A stretch of DNA of 64,000 bases, from assembly GCA_902554655.1 (NCBI GenBank), contig CACDPE010000002.1, positions 1 to 64,000 on the forward strand, given 5' to 3'. Under the pieces are notes generated by a model. That model had not been told where the DNA came from. It saw only the letters and a list, made by a program, of their open reading frames with translations, and did no database searches. Below, one piece after another: positions 32,584-58,150 of the stretch (positions are counted from its first letter, which is position 1; every line of letters starts with the position of its first letter). This DNA is from an uncultured Bacteroidota bacterium (GTDB lineage Bacteria > Bacteroidota > Bacteroidia > Flavobacteriales > Flavobacteriaceae). The translations under genes and the position numbers were made by a program.

Positions 32584-32654
32584 AGGCACCGAGCGGATTC
32601 GAACCGCTGTACAAGCTTTTGCAGAGCTCTGCCTAGCCACTCGGCCACAGTGCC
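32584..32654 (-). tRNA. tRNA-Cys (GCA)
   Basis: A 71-nt cloverleaf on the minus strand. The acceptor stem pairs GGCACTG with CGGTGCC and has discriminator U73, typical of tRNA-Cys. The anticodon loop is CTGCAAA (anticodon GCA) on a 5-bp stem, and the T-arm reads AGCGG-TTCGAAT-CCGCT. CCA is not encoded. It stands alone, followed by a strong terminator. Confidence 0.97.
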
Positions 32655-46249: not shown

Positions 46250-47740
46250 ATGTTAAAAAAATGGATTGCAAAAATAATTGCTTTTGTTGTAGTTAAGAGA
46301 ATCGAAAACACTTATTCAAAAGCTGCCAAAATTCAAAAAAAAATATTGTTGAAACTTTTAAAGAAAGCATCTAATACACTTTTCGGTTTAGACCATAGTT
46401 TTAGCCAGATTAATGACTACAAGTCTTTTAAGAGTTTAGTTCCTGTCAGAGATTATGAAGGCATAAAAAGCTATATTGATAAAGTTAAAAACGCAGAAGA
46501 GAATGTTCTTTGGCCAGGAAAACCAAGGTATTTTGCTAAAACATCAGGAACTACAAGTGGCGCAAAACTTATTCCAATTTCAAATGAATCAATGCCCCAC
46601 CACATAAAATCATCCAGAAACGCCTTGCTTTTTTACATAAATAAAACAGGAAAAACTGATTTTTTGAGTGGTAAAACAATTTTTATTCAAGGATCTCCTG
46701 TTTTAAAAAATGTGAATGGAATAAAAACAGGAAGATTGTCTGGAATAGTAGCTCATTACGTTCCTCAATATTTAAGAGCGGACAATATGCCCTCGTGGGG
46801 TACTAATTGTATTGATGATTGGGAAAAAAAAATTAATGCAATTTGCGACGAAACATTAAATGAGAACATGACAGTTATTGGTGGAATTCCGTCCTGGGTG
46901 CAAATGTATTTTGAAAAACTTATCACAAAGTCAAATAAAAAAAATTTATCTGAAATTTTTCAAAATTTTTCCCTTTTTATTTTTGGCGGAGTAAATTATG
47001 AGCCTTATAAAAAAAAGTTTAACAAACTTATTGGAAAAAAAATTGACTCGATTGAATATTTTCCGGCATCTGAAGGTTTTTTTGCCTATCAAAATGATCA
47101 AGAAAATAAAGCTTTACTCCTCCAATATGACTCTGGAATTTTTTATGAGTTTATTAAGCTTAGTGAATTTGAAAGTAATAAAGCAACACGTCACGATCTT
47201 TCCACTGTTGAAATTGGAGTTAACTACGTCATGATTGTTTCAACTAATGCAGGCCTTTGGGCATATAATACAGGTGATACAGTTGTTTTTACCTCTTTAA
47301 TTCCTCCAAAAATTTTAGTTACGGGAAGATATAAGCATTTTATTTCTGCCTTCGGAGAACATGTTATTACAAGTGAAATTGAGCAATCTTTAGCTGAAAC
47401 AGCCAGTTTTTTTAATGTTGTTATAAGTGAATTTACAGTAGCTCCAAAACTAGAAAATGAAGGTGATTTACCATGTCACGAATGGTGTTTTGAAATAGAA
47501 ACAACGGACTTTAACAAGTCAAAGTTCTCTAAATACCTAAATTCAGCATTATGCAATAGAAATATTTATTACAAAGATTTAATTAAAGGAAAAGTTTTAA
47601 AAGAACTCGAAATAGTAGTAGTAAAAAAAGGTACTTTCAAAAAATATATGAAGTCAATGGGAAAGCTTGGTGGACAGAACAAAATACCAAGACTTTCTAA
47701 TAGCAGACAATTTATTGATGGTGTTCTTAAACAAAGTTAA
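46250..47740 (+). CDS. GH3-family acyl-adenylate-forming-like protein
   Basis: Cytoplasmic protein of 496 aa in the family named for the plant GH3 (JAR1) acyl-acid amido synthetases. The phosphate-binding TSGTTSGAKLIPIS (about 92-105), YPAS-like YFPASEG and the YNTGDTVVF motif are present, consistent with adenylate formation. Bacterial members have no settled substrate. The gene starts one base after the M23 stop and its end overlaps the convergent kelch-wHTH gene by 4 nt. Confidence 0.85.
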   Translation: MLKKWIAKIIAFVVVKRIENTYSKAAKIQKKILLKLLKKASNTLFGLDHSFSQINDYKSFKSLVPVRDYEGIKSYIDKVKNAEENVLWPGKPRYFAKTSGTTSGAKLIPISNESMPHHIKSSRNALLFYINKTGKTDFLSGKTIFIQGSPVLKNVNGIKTGRLSGIVAHYVPQYLRADNMPSWGTNCIDDWEKKINAICDETLNENMTVIGGIPSWVQMYFEKLITKSNKKNLSEIFQNFSLFIFGGVNYEPYKKKFNKLIGKKIDSIEYFPASEGFFAYQNDQENKALLLQYDSGIFYEFIKLSEFESNKATRHDLSTVEIGVNYVMIVSTNAGLWAYNTGDTVVFTSLIPPKILVTGRYKHFISAFGEHVITSEIEQSLAETASFFNVVISEFTVAPKLENEGDLPCHEWCFEIETTDFNKSKFSKYLNSALCNRNIYYKDLIKGKVLKELEIVVVKKGTFKKYMKSMGKLGGQNKIPRLSNSRQFIDGVLKQS

Positions 47741-49200
47741 CCTTGTTTGAGGTTAATTTTTTGATTTAAAATATAATTAGTTTGTCTTGAATCAGTTTTA
47801 GACTTTTGATTGTAGAACAAAGTTACTCCGTAAAGATCTGTGAAACGCTTATTGAGGCTTGTTAACTCTTTATTTTTTCTTTTAATCGCATAATCTTTTG
47901 TTTTGGATTTTTCAGCAAACAAAGACATTATTATAGAATTTGCAAGTGATTTTTTATTAATAAATAGAGATATTAAAACGCTTTCAATTTCACTTAATTT
48001 TAAAATTCCTTTCGTGTGAATTATCTCATTATCGACTAAAATATAGTATCTACTGGTGTTTTTAAAGAAAATCCACAGAAAAACAATAATGGAAATTAAT
48101 AGAACCGTACCTAATATTAGAAAATTATAAAAATTGTCTGAATTTCTGTATAAATATTCTTCGGTAATGTTTGGATTGTTCTCAAGTCCAGTTAAATCAA
48201 AATAAGCCATAGAGACTGATCCAGTTGCAGAATTTCTAACCGTACTTATTATTTCATTGTCTTTAATTATAGACTTCTCTCCGCTTTTGTGCAACAACAA
48301 ATCATTAGGTATAGTTTGTATAATGTTTTCTGTTGGGTTAATTAAGTAAAGATTGGGATCATCAATAATATTGATTAAAAGATTGTCTTTATAGACCCAA
48401 TCTTTGTTTAAGGCAGTTATAGGAGCGTTTAATAAAACAGGGTTTAAAACACCTTTCTTTTCCCAATTAAAAGTATCCGAAGCCATACTTTCCCCTATTG
48501 ATGTTGATATCGGCAAGCTTAAAACATAAAGATTATCCTCTCGTTTTTCTTTTTGATTATTACTGTTTCTACTCACAAATCCTGCAGCATAAAGCTTACT
48601 GTCTTTAATTAAGAAAGCGCCACGATCAATTCCTTCAGGCGCTTGTCCTGTAGTAGGTATATAGTCCCACTCCCCAGAACTAAAATTAAATTTTGTTAAA
48701 AGAGATTTTGTTTCCCAAAAGCCATAACCCCCCAGTAAATAAAGACTTTTGTTGTGGCTGAAAAAATATCCAGAATATTGATTCCTATGAGCGAAAGATC
48801 TATCAATTCTTTTTATTGCCCCGCTGCTTTCATTAAACTTAAATAGCATACCACCTCCGGGATACAAAAGATAAGTATCAGGGCCCATTTTAGTTTGTAT
48901 TAGAGCTTGAAGCTCAACATTAATTTCCTTAGGCGCTGGGCTAGAATAATCTTTATAGATAAACTCATCGTTTTGAAATGGACCTGTAAGAAAACCATTT
49001 CTTAAAAGTATGTGAAAATAGTTTTTCCCATTTTCAATAAATAAGAAATCTTTGGTTTCTAAAAGTTTTGAGACGTTGTCATTTTTTAGAATAGAATCAT
49101 TGGAAGCTTTAGTAAAATCATTTTTTTCAGAAGCAAAAAAATGCTTGCTGTAAAAGTTTAATGTTATTAAAAAAATCCAGAAAATTGTTTTTTTATTCAT
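47737..49200 (-). CDS. Kelch-like sensor with transmembrane helix and C-terminal winged-helix-like domain (paralog A)
   Basis: A 487-aa protein with an N-terminal signal (MNKKTIFWIFLITLNFYSK), an extracytoplasmic region (about 25-355) with kelch-like segments (SLYLLGGYGFWETK, KLYAAGFVS), one membrane helix (about 359-379) and a C-terminal cytoplasmic domain (about 385-487). The tail has a helix, helix, wing pattern (LSEIESVLISLF, NSIIMSLFA, YAIKRKNKELTSLNKRF, then DSRQTNYILN) like OmpR-type winged helices. It shares RIDxxxxHRNQ and GGYGFW with the 50249 protein. I start at the ATG at 49200, which overlaps the sugar-phosphate transferase stop by 4 nt (ATGA), implying coupled translation. Confidence 0.72.
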   Translation of the reverse strand: MNKKTIFWIFLITLNFYSKHFFASEKNDFTKASNDSILKNDNVSKLLETKDFLFIENGKNYFHILLRNGFLTGPFQNDEFIYKDYSSPAPKEINVELQALIQTKMGPDTYLLYPGGGMLFKFNESSGAIKRIDRSFAHRNQYSGYFFSHNKSLYLLGGYGFWETKSLLTKFNFSSGEWDYIPTTGQAPEGIDRGAFLIKDSKLYAAGFVSRNSNNQKEKREDNLYVLSLPISTSIGESMASDTFNWEKKGVLNPVLLNAPITALNKDWVYKDNLLINIIDDPNLYLINPTENIIQTIPNDLLLHKSGEKSIIKDNEIISTVRNSATGSVSMAYFDLTGLENNPNITEEYLYRNSDNFYNFLILGTVLLISIIVFLWIFFKNTSRYYILVDNEIIHTKGILKLSEIESVLISLFINKKSLANSIIMSLFAEKSKTKDYAIKRKNKELTSLNKRFTDLYGVTLFYNQKSKTDSRQTNYILNQKINLKQG

Positions 49201-50231
49201 TTGAAGATTAAGAAAAATATACCAATCATATAAACTAATAAACAAATAATTACAAGGCTCAAACTTAAAACACCTGAAAGAATAAAACCTAAAACAATAA
49301 CAGAAATAGAAACTACTAAAATTGTTAATGTTGATTGCCAATGATTAAGCCCTTTTTTATCAATTAGTCTATGATGAAGATGTACTCTATCAGCAACAAA
49401 AGGAGATTGTTTCTTGTAAGCTCTTATAATAAAAGCTCTTAAAGTATCAGCCAGAGGATATATTAATAACAAGACGGCAAGTAAAGGTCTCGAAATGCTT
49501 GAATCGGTTATAATAGAACTTCTATCATCAAGTATATAAAAAATATAAAAAGCCATAACCGAGCCTAGTAAAAGCGAGCCAGTATCCCCTAGAAAAACTT
49601 TCTTGTGAGGGTTCATGTTGTAAATTAAAAAACCAATTAAAGCTCCTATTATTGATGGAACAACAAGTTCCATTTCTTTTGAAGAAACAGCAAGAATAGC
49701 CCCAACTATAACAAAAAACTTTATACAAAGTAAAGCGGCTAACCCATCAATTCCATCAATTAGATTTAATGAGTTTACTATCACTACAAATACATATAAT
49801 GTTATTACCACAGATGCCCAGTAAGGAATTTCATATATACCAAAAACACCGTGAAAATTATTGATAAAAATATTGCTTTGTAATAAAACAACTCCAGCAA
49901 AAACTTGAACAAAAAACTTTTCTCTGTATTTAATTGTAAACAAATCATCACCAACACCAATTAGAGCTACAAAACAAAAAGCAATTAGAGCGTAAAGATT
50001 TACACTTATCACACCCAGTGCTTTTCCTACGCCATAACATATGCAAAAAGTTAAAAACAAAGCAAGCCCACCAGACCTGGTCGCTTTGTCCTTATGAGAA
50101 GACCTTTCTACAACTGGATCATACATTTTATTTCGATTAAAAGTGTTGTTTAAATATCCGTTTAAAAAAGCCGAAAGACCAGCTCCTAATAACAAAAACA
50201 AAAAATAATAAACTAATAATTCAATTTCCAT
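49197..50231 (-). CDS. WecA/MraY-family undecaprenyl-phosphate sugar-phosphate transferase
   Basis: Polytopic inner-membrane protein of 344 aa with about ten helices. It belongs to the family that transfers a sugar 1-phosphate (such as GlcNAc-1-P) onto undecaprenyl phosphate to start O-antigen, capsule or enterobacterial-common-antigen-type glycans. Motifs: DDLFTIKY and the Mg-binding NLIDGIDGLAA, LGDTGSLLLGS and the loop DRVHLHHRLIDKKG. These fit WecA-like proteins better than MraY (no cell-wall cluster nearby). It is coupled to paralog A by a 4-nt overlap, and divergent from paralog B, whose GTG start is 17 nt away. Confidence 0.88.
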   Translation of the reverse strand: MEIELLVYYFLFLLLGAGLSAFLNGYLNNTFNRNKMYDPVVERSSHKDKATRSGGLALFLTFCICYGVGKALGVISVNLYALIAFCFVALIGVGDDLFTIKYREKFFVQVFAGVVLLQSNIFINNFHGVFGIYEIPYWASVVITLYVFVVIVNSLNLIDGIDGLAALLCIKFFVIVGAILAVSSKEMELVVPSIIGALIGFLIYNMNPHKKVFLGDTGSLLLGSVMAFYIFYILDDRSSIITDSSISRPLLAVLLLIYPLADTLRAFIIRAYKKQSPFVADRVHLHHRLIDKKGLNHWQSTLTILVVSISVIVLGFILSGVLSLSLVIICLLVYMIGIFFLIFK

Positions 50232-50248
50232 TTATTAACTTAGTTTTA

Positions 50249-51658
50249 GTGAAAAGATTTGTTTTATACATTGTTTTATTGTGTTGTAATATTTCTCTAT
50301 GTCAAATTCAGCTGCCAGTTTATGATAGTATAACAAATTATCTGTTTGCAAAATCAGAAAATGAAAAACTATCTATAATAACCACTAATGGTATTTTTGA
50401 ATTAAATAATAATTCGTGGGATTATTTTGAATTTACTTCTTCTTCATTCAAACAAGAGATTAAAGAAATTGGAGTAGAATTTTCACACAAAGAATATTTA
50501 TCTATTTCAACTTCCAATGATTTTTATTTGGTCTCAGTTGGAGGAGGACCAGTTTTTAAAAAAGACGGTAATCAATTTATAAGAATTGACAACACTAGCC
50601 TTCATAGGAATCAAGTATGGGGCTCTTTTTTTGTATATAATGACAAAATTCATATTTACGGAGGTTATGGTTTTTGGTCTTTTAAAGACTATATCACTTT
50701 CTATGATCCAAATATTAAACAATGGGACATAGTTTATAATAATAGCGCTTATATTCCAAAAGGCAGAGGCAAATCAATTAGTTTGATTTCACCTGATGAT
50801 AAACTTTATGTCCTTGGAGGCTCAACCATTAGTTCACAAAGCGCCATGTATAGTACAGACAACGATGATGCCTTTTATTTTGATTTAATCAAAAAAGAAT
50901 TTGTTGATCTAGGCAAAATTTCTCAACCATTAACCTCAAAACACACCCTTTTTACATTGCCATCAATTGACATGAGTTCTTTTTTAGTGGAAAACGACTC
51001 AATTATCAAATTTGACTTTAATAATATGAGCTATACCTCGTTTAAAAACAACAATAAAAAACTCAACATTGATAATAAGTTTCCAACTTTTATTGTTGAT
51101 GAAAGCATATTTTTTATTTCTGGAAACAATGGCTCTAAAACGCTTGATCACATAAACTTAAATTTATTAGATCAATCAGCTTATTCCAAATCAACATTTC
51201 CAATAGTTTCAGAAAAAAGAGACACTAAAATTGAAAACATCTTAATTGCTTTAATTGGAGTTATATTTTTCTGGATCATTTTGAAACTTTTTTTATACAA
51301 AGATCACATTAAGGCTCAATTATTATTTGATGAAAAAGCAATTTACTTTAAAAACAACTCAGTTGAAATTACGATGAAAGAAAAAAAGTTTATAACACTT
51401 TTGTCTAAAAACAATTTCATTTCAGCCCCTCAAATAAATAAAATTATATCTTCTAAAAACTACAGTAAATCACACCTAACTTCAATTAGAAATGACTTTA
51501 TTGGCGACATAAACTCAAAGCTTTTTGATTTGACTGGAAACAAAACTTCAGTTATTGAAACCAAACACCCAGAAGATAATAGAATCAAGGCGTATAAAAC
51601 GGATATTAATAGTTTCAAACCTAAAATAAGTTTTATAAAATTTGTTTTTAAGCTGTAA
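50249..51658 (+). CDS. Kelch-like sensor with transmembrane helix and C-terminal winged-helix-like domain (paralog B, GTG start)
   Basis: A 469-aa protein with a signal peptide (MKRFVLYIVLLCCNISLC), an extracytoplasmic region (about 25-325) with kelch-like segments (KIHIYGGYGFWSFKDY and KLYVLGG), one membrane helix (about 330-349) and a C-terminal tail (about 355-469) with ITMKEKKFITLLS, APQINKIISSK and SHLTSIRNDFIGDINSKL, then a wing-like stretch (SVIETKHPEDNRIKAYKTD), resembling OmpR-type DNA-binding domains. The shared block with paralog A is RIDxxxxHRNQxxGxFF followed by GGYGFW and W-D. The start is GTG. Function is inferred: a membrane-bound transcription regulator sensing an extracytoplasmic signal. 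Confidence 0.7.
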   Translation: MKRFVLYIVLLCCNISLCQIQLPVYDSITNYLFAKSENEKLSIITTNGIFELNNNSWDYFEFTSSSFKQEIKEIGVEFSHKEYLSISTSNDFYLVSVGGGPVFKKDGNQFIRIDNTSLHRNQVWGSFFVYNDKIHIYGGYGFWSFKDYITFYDPNIKQWDIVYNNSAYIPKGRGKSISLISPDDKLYVLGGSTISSQSAMYSTDNDDAFYFDLIKKEFVDLGKISQPLTSKHTLFTLPSIDMSSFLVENDSIIKFDFNNMSYTSFKNNNKKLNIDNKFPTFIVDESIFFISGNNGSKTLDHINLNLLDQSAYSKSTFPIVSEKRDTKIENILIALIGVIFFWIILKLFLYKDHIKAQLLFDEKAIYFKNNSVEITMKEKKFITLLSKNNFISAPQINKIISSKNYSKSHLTSIRNDFIGDINSKLFDLTGNKTSVIETKHPEDNRIKAYKTDINSFKPKISFIKFVFKL

Positions 51659-51713
51659 TTTAGATATAGCTTCGCTATTCTGTTCACAAAAAAACCAGAA
51701 CAATTATTGGCGT

Positions 51714-52193
51714 TTATGCAGCGATTAAATCACTTTTATTTATGACTATCTTAATATTTAAAGATTTTAAAGTAATTGTAACTGTCTTATTATTTATTTT
51801 TTCAACAACTCCTTTTTTGTAAATCATAGGGCCTGAAATAATCTTCACTTTTTCACCAATATTACAATTAAAAAAACTATCATTGTCTCCATCACCATTA
51901 ATGTGGTTTTTCAAAACAGAAATTTCATACTCAGTTATTACTGCTGGCATCCCATTGGTATCCCTTACAATACTTTTAGTGTAAGGATTAAGATTGATTA
52001 AATTATAGTCGAGTTTATTTAGTTTAAAAAAAGCATAACCAGGCATAGCAGGCGTGTTGACTTTTTTTATTCTGTCAGACCAAACTCTTCTTGTTTTAAA
52101 AAAAGGAACATAGGATTCAATATCAAATGAAGAGAAAAAGTCTCTAGCTTTGAACTCGTTTTTGCCTTTAGTTTTAATTGCAAACCATTTCAT
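51714..52193 (-). CDS. UpxY/RfaH-type NusG paralog (transcription antiterminator)
   Basis: NusG-like antiterminator of 159 aa. The N-terminal NGN domain (MKWFAIKTKGKNEFKARDFF, then ESYVPFFKTRRVWSDRIKKV and PAMPGYAFF) is followed by a C-terminal KOW-type region (IGEKVKIISGPMIYKKGVVE). The ARDFF...SYVPF and TPAMPGYAF segments are typical of Bacteroidota UpxY regulators of polysaccharide operons. I start at the ATG at 52193; an in-frame start at 52223 adds ten residues. Unlike classical UpxY, nothing lies downstream on its strand except the convergent paralog B. Confidence 0.88.
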   Translation of the reverse strand: MKWFAIKTKGKNEFKARDFFSSFDIESYVPFFKTRRVWSDRIKKVNTPAMPGYAFFKLNKLDYNLINLNPYTKSIVRDTNGMPAVITEYEISVLKNHINGDGDNDSFFNCNIGEKVKIISGPMIYKKGVVEKINNKTVTITLKSLNIKIVINKSDLIAA

Positions 52194-52393
52194 GCGTATT
52201 GCTAATATATAAATAATATTCAAATCAATAGTTCGTTTTTTTGTATCCTATTTTTAAAAAACTGATTTTCAACAATTTAAATTTGAAAATTAAAAATTAC
52301 AAGTTTTTTTAAAGTCTAATAAATTTTTATTATCGAAGCTTTTTTATTGATATAAATTGACTTAAAAAAGTATAAATAATTTAATTTTACAAA

Positions 52394-55888: not shown

Positions 55889-58150
55889 ATGATCAAACAA
55901 TTTAAATACATATTATTTTTTTTAATTTTTATTTCCTGTAAAACCAATTCAGATAATATTAAAGTTAATTCGGTTAAGATTAATTATAACATATTGTATA
56001 ATGGTGAAAATTATTTCAAAGAAGCGTTAACTATCTTAAAAGACAATTATAGTTCAAACTATTGGGATATTATTCCTTTAATTGAGGAAATGGAGTATTC
56101 TAGAGATGAGAATATTATTCCTACCAAAAACTTTGAAAAAGCTGAAGAAAAAGCTATAAAAGCAATACAAAAATCAAAAAATAATCAAATTAAAATCTTA
56201 GATAGAGCATATTTATTATTGGGAAAATCAAGATTTTATGATCAAAGGTATATTGCTTCCTTACAAGCTTTAGGACAAGTTGTAGAACGAAAAGATGAAG
56301 CAATTTTGTGGAAAGTCATGATATATCTAAACCTTGATCAAATAGATTTGGCATTAAAAATTATAACAGATGAATTAAAAACAAGAAATAAAGACCAAAT
56401 TAATATTGAATTACTAAAAGCTAGTGTTCAATCTGAAATAATAAATAAGAATTATAAAAAGGCTTTAGTTGGTTTAAAAAAAATATATGAAAACACTGAC
56501 GATAAAATTATAAAATCAAGAAGTAGTTTTATTTCTGCTCAAATTTATTCTAAAAATAATGAACTGGATTCAACAAAAATCTTTTACTCGAAGGCACTCA
56601 ATAGCGGAATTAAAAAATCTTCAGAAATTTATTTGATGTCAAAGCTTAGACTAATGCATATTAATGAAAATATTGATTTAGCTGAATTCAGTAAGATTAG
56701 AAGATCTGGACTATACCCTGAAAAAATAAGTTTGATTAATTTTTATGAAGGTTTGAGCACTTTGAAAACAGATACTCTAAAAGCTGTAAGTTTATTTAAT
56801 AAAGCTTTAAAATATGAAAATATTGATCATTTCTTGAAATTAAAAATCTATAAGAACTTACAAAAGATTAGTTATGATCAAAAAAATTATTTAGAATCTT
56901 CAAATTATATAGACACATTACTAAAAATTGAAAATCAGTCGTCTAAGGAGTTTTTTAAGCTAAATGCTTTAAAAAATAAACTAAAAAGTGTAACTAAATT
57001 AGAAGAGAAAAATATTGAAATCGACTCTATATTAATACTATCTAAATTAACTGAAAAAGAGATCAATGATTTGAAAACTAAATCAAATTCAGATACACAA
57101 AAAAAACAAATTAAAGTATCTAATAATTTTAATAAAAATACATTTTATTATTACAATCAATTGGCAATTGAAAAGGGAATTCAAGATTTTAAAATGAAAT
57201 GGGGAGATATAAAACTTCAAGACAACTGGAAGATGAATTTAGAATACAGTAAAGTTATAAGTCAATCTGCTCATAAAAACAATACAAATAAATTAATTGA
57301 AAAGAAGGTAGATTATAGTTTAACAGAATATGAACAAGATAGCTTATACAATTTGTATAATAAAAATATGTTAATGCTAGGAATTTATTATAATGAGTTT
57401 TTTAATGATTATGTTAAATCTTTAAAAAAACTAGAAAATATAGATCAAAAATATCTTACTAGTGACGATAAAATACAGTTAAAATATTATAAGTATTTGT
57501 CTTATTTAAATAATAAAAATATAAAATCCAATCACTTAAAAAAGGAAATTTTAGAGAATTACCCTTCATCTATCTATGCTAAAAGAATTAATCAACAAAA
57601 ATTAGTCGATCACCAAAACATAGATAAACTTAAAGACTCAATTCAAAATTTGATAAACACAAATAAGATTGAATTGTCGTCTCGGCTGGTTGACTCTTTG
57701 ATTGTTTTAAATATTAAAAGAAATGATCTATTTGAGCTAAAATTAATTAAATCTGAGCTAATTCTAAAAAAAGATAATATAAAATCTTATGTCGATGAAT
57801 TAACAAGCCTGAAATTAGAGTTTCCCGAGAACAAAGACAAGCTAGACAGAATGATTAATATTGTCAGCTCAATAATTTTGAAAAAATCATTAGATATTAA
57901 AGATGACAATTTTGTATTTGGTTTTTTTATCGAAAAAAAAATTAATAATAATTATGGAAATCTCAATATTGAATATTATGATGAAAAATATGATCTTCTT
58001 GTCTCATATGGACACGCTAGTTTGATTAGTGCAAAGAACAACCTGAATGAATTTTTGAAAAAAAATAAAAAGTTGCTAAACAATAAATATTTTGTATTTT
58101 CGACATCCCAATTCATTAATGCATTGGTTTTTAAAACATTAGATAATTAA
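55889..58150 (+). CDS. SprE/PorW-like TPR lipoprotein (type IX secretion, candidate)
   Basis: Lipoprotein of 753 aa with lipobox Cys17 (FLIFISCKTNS). The body is helical with tetratricopeptide-type repeats, for example about residues 90-140 (RAYLLLGKSRFYDQRYIASLQ is cut short as LLLGKSRFYDQRYIASLQ) and further degenerate ones to about residue 640, followed by a conserved-looking C-terminal tail. In flavobacteria the SprE (PorW) lipoprotein of the type IX secretion and gliding machinery lies just upstream of bactofilin and atp genes, as here. SprE proteins are usually longer (about 850-900 aa). The assignment rests on architecture and position. Confidence 0.65.
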   Translation: MIKQFKYILFFLIFISCKTNSDNIKVNSVKINYNILYNGENYFKEALTILKDNYSSNYWDIIPLIEEMEYSRDENIIPTKNFEKAEEKAIKAIQKSKNNQIKILDRAYLLLGKSRFYDQRYIASLQALGQVVERKDEAILWKVMIYLNLDQIDLALKIITDELKTRNKDQINIELLKASVQSEIINKNYKKALVGLKKIYENTDDKIIKSRSSFISAQIYSKNNELDSTKIFYSKALNSGIKKSSEIYLMSKLRLMHINENIDLAEFSKIRRSGLYPEKISLINFYEGLSTLKTDTLKAVSLFNKALKYENIDHFLKLKIYKNLQKISYDQKNYLESSNYIDTLLKIENQSSKEFFKLNALKNKLKSVTKLEEKNIEIDSILILSKLTEKEINDLKTKSNSDTQKKQIKVSNNFNKNTFYYYNQLAIEKGIQDFKMKWGDIKLQDNWKMNLEYSKVISQSAHKNNTNKLIEKKVDYSLTEYEQDSLYNLYNKNMLMLGIYYNEFFNDYVKSLKKLENIDQKYLTSDDKIQLKYYKYLSYLNNKNIKSNHLKKEILENYPSSIYAKRINQQKLVDHQNIDKLKDSIQNLINTNKIELSSRLVDSLIVLNIKRNDLFELKLIKSELILKKDNIKSYVDELTSLKLEFPENKDKLDRMINIVSSIILKKSLDIKDDNFVFGFFIEKKINNNYGNLNIEYYDEKYDLLVSYGHASLISAKNNLNEFLKKNKKLLNNKYFVFSTSQFINALVFKTLDN

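Follow-up and report, generated by a model that had tools for sequence, protein, structure and literature searches.

We lean, though only slightly, toward the view that KelA and KelB, two membrane proteins encoded in the genome of an uncultured marine bacterium of the Flavobacteriaceae, are a pair of transmembrane one-component regulators for a surface-polysaccharide locus and act on a DNA module in front of upxY(-wza-wzz). Their genes lie in a stretch of 64,000 nucleotides (nt), positions 1 to 64,000 of the forward strand of contig CACDPE010000002.1 (GenBank assembly GCA_902554655.1), which we refer to as the window. The source genome (G000; G and L numbers denote genomes and loci) is a 1.1-Mb, 68%-complete assembly of 47 contigs. 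Sequence comparison and structure computation reveal the architecture and fold class of the two proteins, a locus conserved among relatives, and a conserved promoter module.

The locus and the architecture of KelA and KelB

The genes in question and the two membrane helices are as follows.

47737..49200, minus strand: KelA gene, 487 amino acids; predicted exported N-terminus, kelch propeller, membrane helix and winged-helix tail
49197..50231, minus strand: gene for a WecA-like polyprenyl-phosphate sugar-1-phosphate transferase, 344 amino acids; PF00953, E 3e-31
50249..51658, plus strand: KelB gene, 469 amino acids, GTG start; same predicted four-part layout as KelA
51714..52193, minus strand: gene for a UpxY/RfaH/NusG-like antiterminator, 159 amino acids from ATG; PF02357, E 1e-9
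48055..48141, minus strand: KelA membrane helix, residues 354-382 (AlphaFold2; hydropathy of orthologs)
51224..51313, plus strand: KelB membrane helix, residues 326-355 (AlphaFold2)

The KelA and transferase genes share an ATGA in a 4-nt overlap, KelB is divergent from the transferase gene with start codons 17 nt apart in the window, and the UpxY-like gene is convergent with KelB. The longest listed open reading frame for KelA has 534 amino acids and a TTG start within the transferase gene; a start at the ATG at 49200 fits the alignment with orthologs. The transferase passes PF00953 (109 bits, cut-off 27), and its best NCBIfam model, ECA_wecA, scores 116.9 bits, below the cut-off of 326. For the UpxY-like protein, the best of the NusG-type models is NF033644 (89.6 bits, E 2e-25), which falls below its 100-bit cut-off. 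KelA and KelB align by BLASTP with 31% identity over 165 amino acids (E 2e-17) and have RID(N)4HRNQ and GGYGFW blocks in common, and on this evidence they are paralogs. An earlier note on the window, made from its letters alone, had given the same coordinates, sizes and overlap, had called the proteins paralogs from the same blocks, and had placed them on both sides of a transferase gene with an antiterminator gene beside KelB; all of this is borne out.

In the AlphaFold2 models, with mean pLDDT 84 and 83, a domain rich in strands is followed by a long helix and then by a C-terminal domain in both proteins. KelB passes two kelch models of Pfam (PF13964, 33.1 bits, cut-off 25.3; PF07646, 24.7 bits, cut-off 21.3), and KelA has sub-threshold matches only, the best to PF24681 (E 7e-5). 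In structure searches with the models, the KelB propeller matched KLHDC3 (Z 19.1, 274 residues, root-mean-square deviation 3.8) and the KelA propeller matched RAG2 (Z 18.5, 274 residues, root-mean-square deviation 4.0). On these models, the first domains of both proteins are kelch propellers, a fold that by itself shows no function. Among 69 Kel relatives, a crude hydropathy threshold picks out a membrane helix in 67, at 99-125 residues from the C-terminus, and a signal-peptide-like N-terminus in 34; the signal peptides of the window proteins were judged by eye. The helices in the models and the hydropathy of relatives point to a topology with the N-terminus outside and the C-terminus inside. 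The proteins would thus have the membrane helix and extracytoplasmic sensor region expected of a transmembrane one-component regulator, and a Pfam scan of the window proteins found no kinase or receiver domain in either. The models and kelch matches uphold the four-part layout proposed in the earlier note, with the topology predicted as above.

The cytoplasmic tails are predicted winged helices

47740..48048, minus strand: KelA tail, residues 385-487, winged-helix-like (AlphaFold2, ten-residue mean pLDDT 89-95; profile comparison)
51323..51655, plus strand: KelB tail, residues 359-469, winged-helix-like (AlphaFold2; profile comparison)

In the AlphaFold2 model, the KelA tail consists of three strands (385-401), a helix (404-415), a strand (418-420), two further helices (421-426 and 435-457) and a wing hairpin (462-478), and the KelB tail has a similar order of strands, helices, long helix and wing hairpin. 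We compared a profile of 43 tails by hhalign with profiles built from proteins of relatives, namely 22 MarR proteins (3 of 25 loci lacked a usable reading frame) and 24 OmpR-type domains (1 of 25 lacked one). The tails scored 77% against MarR (E 2e-5) and 58% against the OmpR type (E 1e-4), compared with at most 0.6% against the 10 of 16 chosen unrelated families that had enough members, and 0.8% for MarR against the OmpR type. In a search of PDB profiles, the top four matches were transcriptional regulators with E values of 0.003-0.022: 3bro and 3oop (both E 0.003), which we take to be of MarR type, 3nrv (named MarR/EmrR, 0.012) and AdcR (0.022). At the tip of the wing, an Asp and an Arg (D-x-R) are invariant in 69/69 relatives, and the Tyr that follows is 96% conserved. 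A wing D-x-R marks MarR proteins, in agreement with the PDB-profile and MarR alignments made here, so that both the winged-helix core and the wing signature of MarR proteins are present in the predicted tails. The tails are basic (isoelectric point, pI, 9.9 and 9.9 in the window; median 9.4 over the 43 tails) and the window propellers are acidic (pI 5.7 and 5.3).

Given the predicted structure and the profile comparison, the assignment of the tails as winged helices of the DNA-binding kind is well supported. A recognizable DNA-binding domain would therefore be present in the same chain as the sensor by predicted fold and profile comparison, and it is weak by single-sequence Pfam search. Structure prediction of the tails had been set beforehand as a test in the earlier note, and the outcome that would have counted against it, a tail with no DNA-binding fold, did not appear. 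The note's comparison with OmpR-type domains holds less well. The KelA tail does have strands before its first helix, as OmpR domains do, and the fold is not clearly of OmpR type (PF00486); we considered the OmpR type as the sole assignment and rejected it because the tails match the MarR profile no less well.

The locus recurs in related genomes

We searched 60 genomes for KelB and found matches in 12, comprising G000, 10 of the 22 others of its genus, and G026, from another genus of the same family. A pattern scan across 84,980 species, with one genome per species, returned 18 loci, several of them identical in contig to surveyed genomes; 17 are titled Bacteroidetes, Flavobacteriales, Flavobacteriaceae or Cryomorphaceae. 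The remaining locus, L060 (PABV01000002.1), is titled Euryarchaeota archaeon NAT11 and has the gene order of the flavobacterial locus; the contig is probably mis-binned.

Two flavobacterial genera keep this layout, with the order KelA, transferase, KelB, Wzz, Wza and UpxY, bounded by conserved neighbors, where Wza has Poly_export and SLBB domains and Wzz has a Wzz domain. Because both proteins, their order and their strand recur in related genomes, the layout is, on this sequence evidence, not due to chance. The second outcome named in the earlier note as refuting its model, a survey in which the paralogs never lie near polysaccharide genes, did not occur either. Wza and Wzz lie between KelB and UpxY in 11 of the 18 genomes whose contig shows that side; one contig is cut after Wzz (L045), and in six genomes, including that of the window, UpxY is directly beside KelB (G000, G016, G018, G022, G001 and L055).

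In three of these six, G016, G018 and G022, a 53%-identical Wza is encoded elsewhere, with Wzz after it in G018 and G022. We had first read the arrangement in the window's lineage as a loss of wza-wzz and rejected that reading because of these relocated genes. In G000 the sole Poly_export match is a different, contig-cut gene (L308, 33% identity), and by analogy with its relatives wza has presumably been relocated in this incomplete genome as well. In G001 (59% complete), where the one Poly_export match is a distant Wza (32%), loss instead of relocation is possible. The relocated wza genes (L305 in G016, L306 in G022 and L307 in G018) adjoin a conserved gene of 257 amino acids, with the promoter module described below in front.

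A conserved promoter module precedes upxY and relocated wza

52230..52282, minus strand: 53-bp conserved promoter module, candidate operator; imperfect TTGATnATCAA-like dyad plus core
52230-52252, minus strand: module core AATAGGATACAAAAAAACGAACT, within the 53-bp module
52202..52209, minus strand: -7-like box TATATTAG; the module core lies 20 nt upstream of it and the upxY ATG 8 nt downstream

Alignment of the gaps between upxY and purD revealed a block more conserved than its surroundings. Mean column agreement reaches 0.91-0.94 for the core and 0.75-0.78 for the dyad part; in the adjoining 40 bp upstream it is 0.50-0.60, and beyond them 0.62-0.77. Read on the upxY strand, the module consists of an imperfect TTGATnATCAA dyad, a T/A run and AATAGrATACAAAAAAAyGAACT, followed after 19-20 nt by TATATT[TA]G. 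This last box is present at that distance in 11 of 12 upxY promoters, and G005 has TATATTTA there. We take the -7 element of Bacteroidota to have the consensus TAnnTTTG, from which the window box is one base off.

All 12 readable UpxY promoters of the genus contain the module with at most two mismatches. The contigs of G011 and G019 stop at UpxY and do not show Kel, and the contig of G022 starts inside upxY. Wherever the Kel genes and the module are both readable in a genome of the genus (10 genomes), they occur together. Each of the three relocated wza promoters has the module too, with one core mismatch, and in two of the three TATATTTG lies 19 nt from it. We trained a profile on the 12 upxY sites, holding out the wza promoters, and scanned 2.02 Mb of partly redundant loci at a threshold of 14 bits (L001-L026 and duplicates left out; early cut-off). 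The scan gave 44 matches above 14 bits, same-locus copies included, all of which are upxY or wza promoters, and the held-out wza promoters scored 48.8-55.4 bits. With three mismatches allowed, the window has one site, compared to none in 100 shuffles; two four-mismatch matches fall inside other reading frames (L273 and L278). Broader searches of the window were less informative. The Bacteroidota -33/-7 promoter pattern matched 5 times, where chance would give 8.0, and TAnnTTTG by itself 104 times against 116 expected, neither informative on its own, and the single Rfam match at gathering scores was a tRNA at 32584-32654.

On this pattern, the module is a regulon signature and a candidate Kel operator. 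Since wza has left upxY and yet keeps the module, a factor acting in trans probably works through it. An activator site is suggested by the near-fixed spacing between the module and the -7-like box and by the lack of a usual -33 box, judged against the promoter consensus of Bacteroidota. The Kel pair is the nearest candidate for the factor because two membrane-anchored proteins with predicted winged helices are encoded beside the promoter in 10 genomes.

The Kel family is wider than the locus

A mixed profile (E <= 1e-6, at most four candidates scored per genome, so that the counts are lower bounds) found Kel proteins in at least 27 of 395 genomes across the phylum and at least 40 of 395 genomes in the order, G000 included. 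By sequence similarity, the family spans Bacteroidota and is much wider than the window locus. We built a tree of 69 non-redundant proteins of 440-620 amino acids from 96 Kel hits, same-locus copies included among the 96; the tree leaves out L129, L132 and L133, which are longer, L135, L154, L155 and a contig-cut KelB, which are shorter, and the window's own KelA and KelB. The three long relatives have 738, 1220 and 838 amino acids, more than most, and at L140:7115-10176 two Kel genes stand in tandem in a genome of another family, with nucleotide-sugar-like genes nearby by eye.

KelA and KelB each form one well-supported clade. A transferase gene lies beside Kel in 3 of 43 distant loci (L123, L139 and L151), of which L123 has a Wzz-like gene and L139 has Wza, a sugar transferase and a deacetylase. 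The proteins from these three loci fall into one weakly supported group with KelA, KelB and L147. Inside this group, the transferase adjoins Kel in 32 of 35 rows, the other three (L038, L049 and L147) being at contig ends, compared to 0 of 34 rows outside it. The tie to the transferase therefore belongs, as far as gene neighborhoods go, to one branch and not to the Kel family.

A proposed mechanism and its alternatives

We propose that KelA and KelB are each exported N-terminus first, so that the kelch propeller would lie in the periplasm, a single helix would cross the inner membrane and a winged-helix DNA-binding tail would lie in the cytoplasm. The pair would serve a locus for surface-polysaccharide assembly, with its sugar-phosphate transferase, UpxY antiterminator, Wza for export and Wzz for chain length. 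The most likely signal for the propellers would be a product or subunit in the periplasm or at the surface. The tails would act on the compound module upstream of upxY(-wza-wzz), which relocated wza has kept, and KelA and KelB may pair as a heterodimer to do so. We infer DNA binding by the tails, the module as their binding site, a glycan-related signal and joint action of KelA and KelB; a surface glycan as the signal itself is a guess. The earlier note had such a signal set the expression of glycan initiation. The tie to polysaccharide genes on which that idea drew is conserved, and the target has shifted: the transferase promoter is not the best candidate, and the module before upxY and relocated wza is. 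It is also possible, as speculation, that in genomes with the full gene order a UpxY complex reads through antisense kelB into the transferase-KelA operon.

Several observations weigh against this proposal. The association seen in the narrow clade did not extend to 40 of 43 distant Kel loci, where no transferase gene was found in the stretch seen, some of it on short contigs; moreover, the group that unites KelA, KelB, the three distant transferase-linked proteins and L147 is weakly supported (82/72). Within the tail evidence, chance-like matches in the PDB search (HIV gp120, TACC3 and Spx) begin at E 0.024. Single tails match Pfam weakly, with SarA/Rot found for 9 of 43 (best E 0.0006) and MarR for 3 of 43 (best E 0.017); those three meet PF01047 at E <= 1, and rows of similar E score about 16 bits, below the curated cut-off of 24.6. 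The window KelA tail alone matches no Pfam DNA-binding family, and the whole-protein structure matches listed cover the propellers only and have no bearing on the tail fold. What ties the candidate module to Kel is proximity in the genome, and a mismatch search, the profile scan and inspection of the boundaries found no module upstream of KelB or of the transferase-KelA operon. Outside the genus, where five UpxY promoters with KelB nearby are readable (the L047 contig ends too soon), the module is weak, with 29.0 bits in L046, 23.0 in L048, 14.1 in L055 and less than 14 in G026 and L049; by eye, the GAAC box of L046, L048, L049 and G026 is doubled, with the extra copy 52-63 bp further upstream. 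Finally, no Kel was found in the incomplete genomes G006, G009 and G021, which hold a 55-58% identical transferase and glycan genes. In G009 and G021, UpxY proteins of 28% and 27% identity are encoded about 38 and 31 kb upstream of the Kel-less transferase, and a pair of genes for export and chain length precedes that transferase; many of the gene names in these stretches were assigned by eye.

A broader form of the proposal, which we put forward tentatively, is that Kel represents an overlooked, Bacteroidota-wide family with a kelch sensor and a MarR-like tail, of which one branch is a polysaccharide feedback switch, its paralogs sensing the polymer or a lipid-linked subunit and jointly binding a module that activates upxY and wza wherever they are located. 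It comes with two further suggestions that we regard as no firmer: that the compound module might be made up of a dyad and a GAAC box that replaces the usual -33 element, and that the family could have been overlooked as its DNA-binding domain matches curated models weakly.

We consider it unlikely, if plausible, that Kel proteins are DNA-binding membrane regulators of other genes, such as the divergent transferase gene, and that the module belongs to a different activator or to a special sigma factor. Such a division would account for the presence of the module before upxY and relocated wza and not before the transferase or KelB, and Kel is divergent from the transferase in the distant loci L139 and L151 too. 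However, the start codons of KelB and the transferase are only 16-33 nt apart, with no shared site there by eye, and the co-occurrence of Kel and the module in every readable genome of the genus speaks for a connection between the two. It is improbable that the module is instead a leader element (RNA or ops-like) read by UpxY, with relocated wza under UpxY in trans and Kel a separate matter. A module common to upxY and wza would suit an expected UpxY operon, and passages of PMC12632263 describe antitermination of polysaccharide operons by UpxY. However, the -7-like TATATT[TA]G box downstream of the module, which in the window stands 8 nt before the upxY start, would place the module upstream of the start of transcription, and its near-fixed spacing fits a promoter element. 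We judge it very improbable that the tails are winged helices with no DNA function and that Kel proteins act as scaffolds in the membrane, exerting direct control over the transferase or the Wzz protein. Winged helices can bind proteins, and the KelA-transferase overlap suggests coupled translation. Against this reading, the tails are basic, their wing tip has the D-x-R that is invariant in relatives and known from MarR proteins, and in the great majority of distant loci no transferase neighbor was found.

Other features near the locus

A small hairpin, ATAGC-TTC-GCTAT, lies at 51666-51678 of the window, in the gap where KelB and UpxY converge. Because its stem is changed on both sides in G001 and L055 (TGGC/GCCA and GGC/GCC), the hairpin may serve both genes as a terminator. 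On the other side of the locus, at 46250-47740, is a gene for a GH3-domain protein related to the lyso-ornithine lipid synthetase OlsH (382 bits, cut-off 620), which adjoins KelA in 11 of 11 relatives' loci that show KelA. Further along, 55889-58150 encodes a PorW/SprE-like lipoprotein of type IX secretion (236 bits, curated cut-off 250). Kel-bearing genomes also contain a second glycan cluster (L308, on contig C30 of G000, and L309, L310 and L311). It encodes a different Wza, with about 30-33% identity, and a conserved protein of about 196-233 amino acids, and some of its genes look by eye like those of a rhamnose pathway.

Relation to known systems and significance

In ToxR and CadC, an N-terminal cytoplasmic DNA-binding domain precedes the membrane helix. 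The predicted order in Kel is reversed, with the sensor first, behind a signal peptide, and the DNA-binding domain last, at the C-terminus after the membrane helix, so that the N-terminal cytoplasmic OmpR-type domain of ToxR and CadC has no counterpart; unlike in those proteins and TcpP, the sensor is a kelch propeller. The underlying plan, an inner-membrane protein that joins an outside sensor to a cytoplasmic DNA-binding domain, would be the same in Kel as in ToxR, CadC, TcpP and the other transmembrane one-component regulators, a known and widespread kind according to passages of PMC10269533. That census identified DNA-binding domains by Pfam models, as its main text describes, and the words "kelch" and "MarR" do not occur in the main text (PMC10269533). 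Our literature search, with most subscription papers and preprints outside its scope, found no paper on kelch-bearing regulators of the Kel build. Given that transmembrane regulators are known, that the Pfam-based census names neither kelch nor MarR, and that no matching paper was found, we propose that Kel is a transmembrane one-component regulator of new build, tied to surface polysaccharide by its genome context. A census based on Pfam would probably miss it, since the Kel tail matches Pfam DNA-binding models weakly.

Bacteroidota also have membrane regulators with a periplasmic propeller, namely hybrid two-component systems and regulators with a ligand-binding sensor. Kel resembles these, within the same phylum, in its predicted periplasmic beta-propeller, membrane helix and cytoplasmic output, and differs in that no kinase or receiver was found, that the propeller is of the kelch kind and that the predicted output is a winged helix and not of AraC or LuxR type. 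MarR proteins are soluble dimers with a helical dimer domain of their own. The Kel tail is like MarR and SarA-type proteins in its predicted core of helix, strand, two helices and wing with D-x-R; unlike MarR, it would be a membrane-tethered tail. In Bacteroides, UpxY and UpxZ control capsule loci, as passages of PMC12632263 report, and there as here a UpxY-like gene heads a polysaccharide operon. Unlike the Bacteroides loci, the Kel locus has a pair of kelch regulators inside it, and upxY and wza are separated in the lineage of the window.

The predicted build of the Kel pair and its place beside genes for starting and exporting a surface polysaccharide suggest a small switch for the cell's sugar coat. 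To our knowledge, little is understood, beyond the gut Bacteroides, about how Bacteroidota keep the export of surface polysaccharide in step with its synthesis. The presence of a Kel pair within an assembly locus, with a predicted periplasmic sensor and a conserved module as its candidate target, makes this question directly testable. More broadly, Kel proteins may form a class of transmembrane regulators that would go uncounted when censuses rely on domain models.

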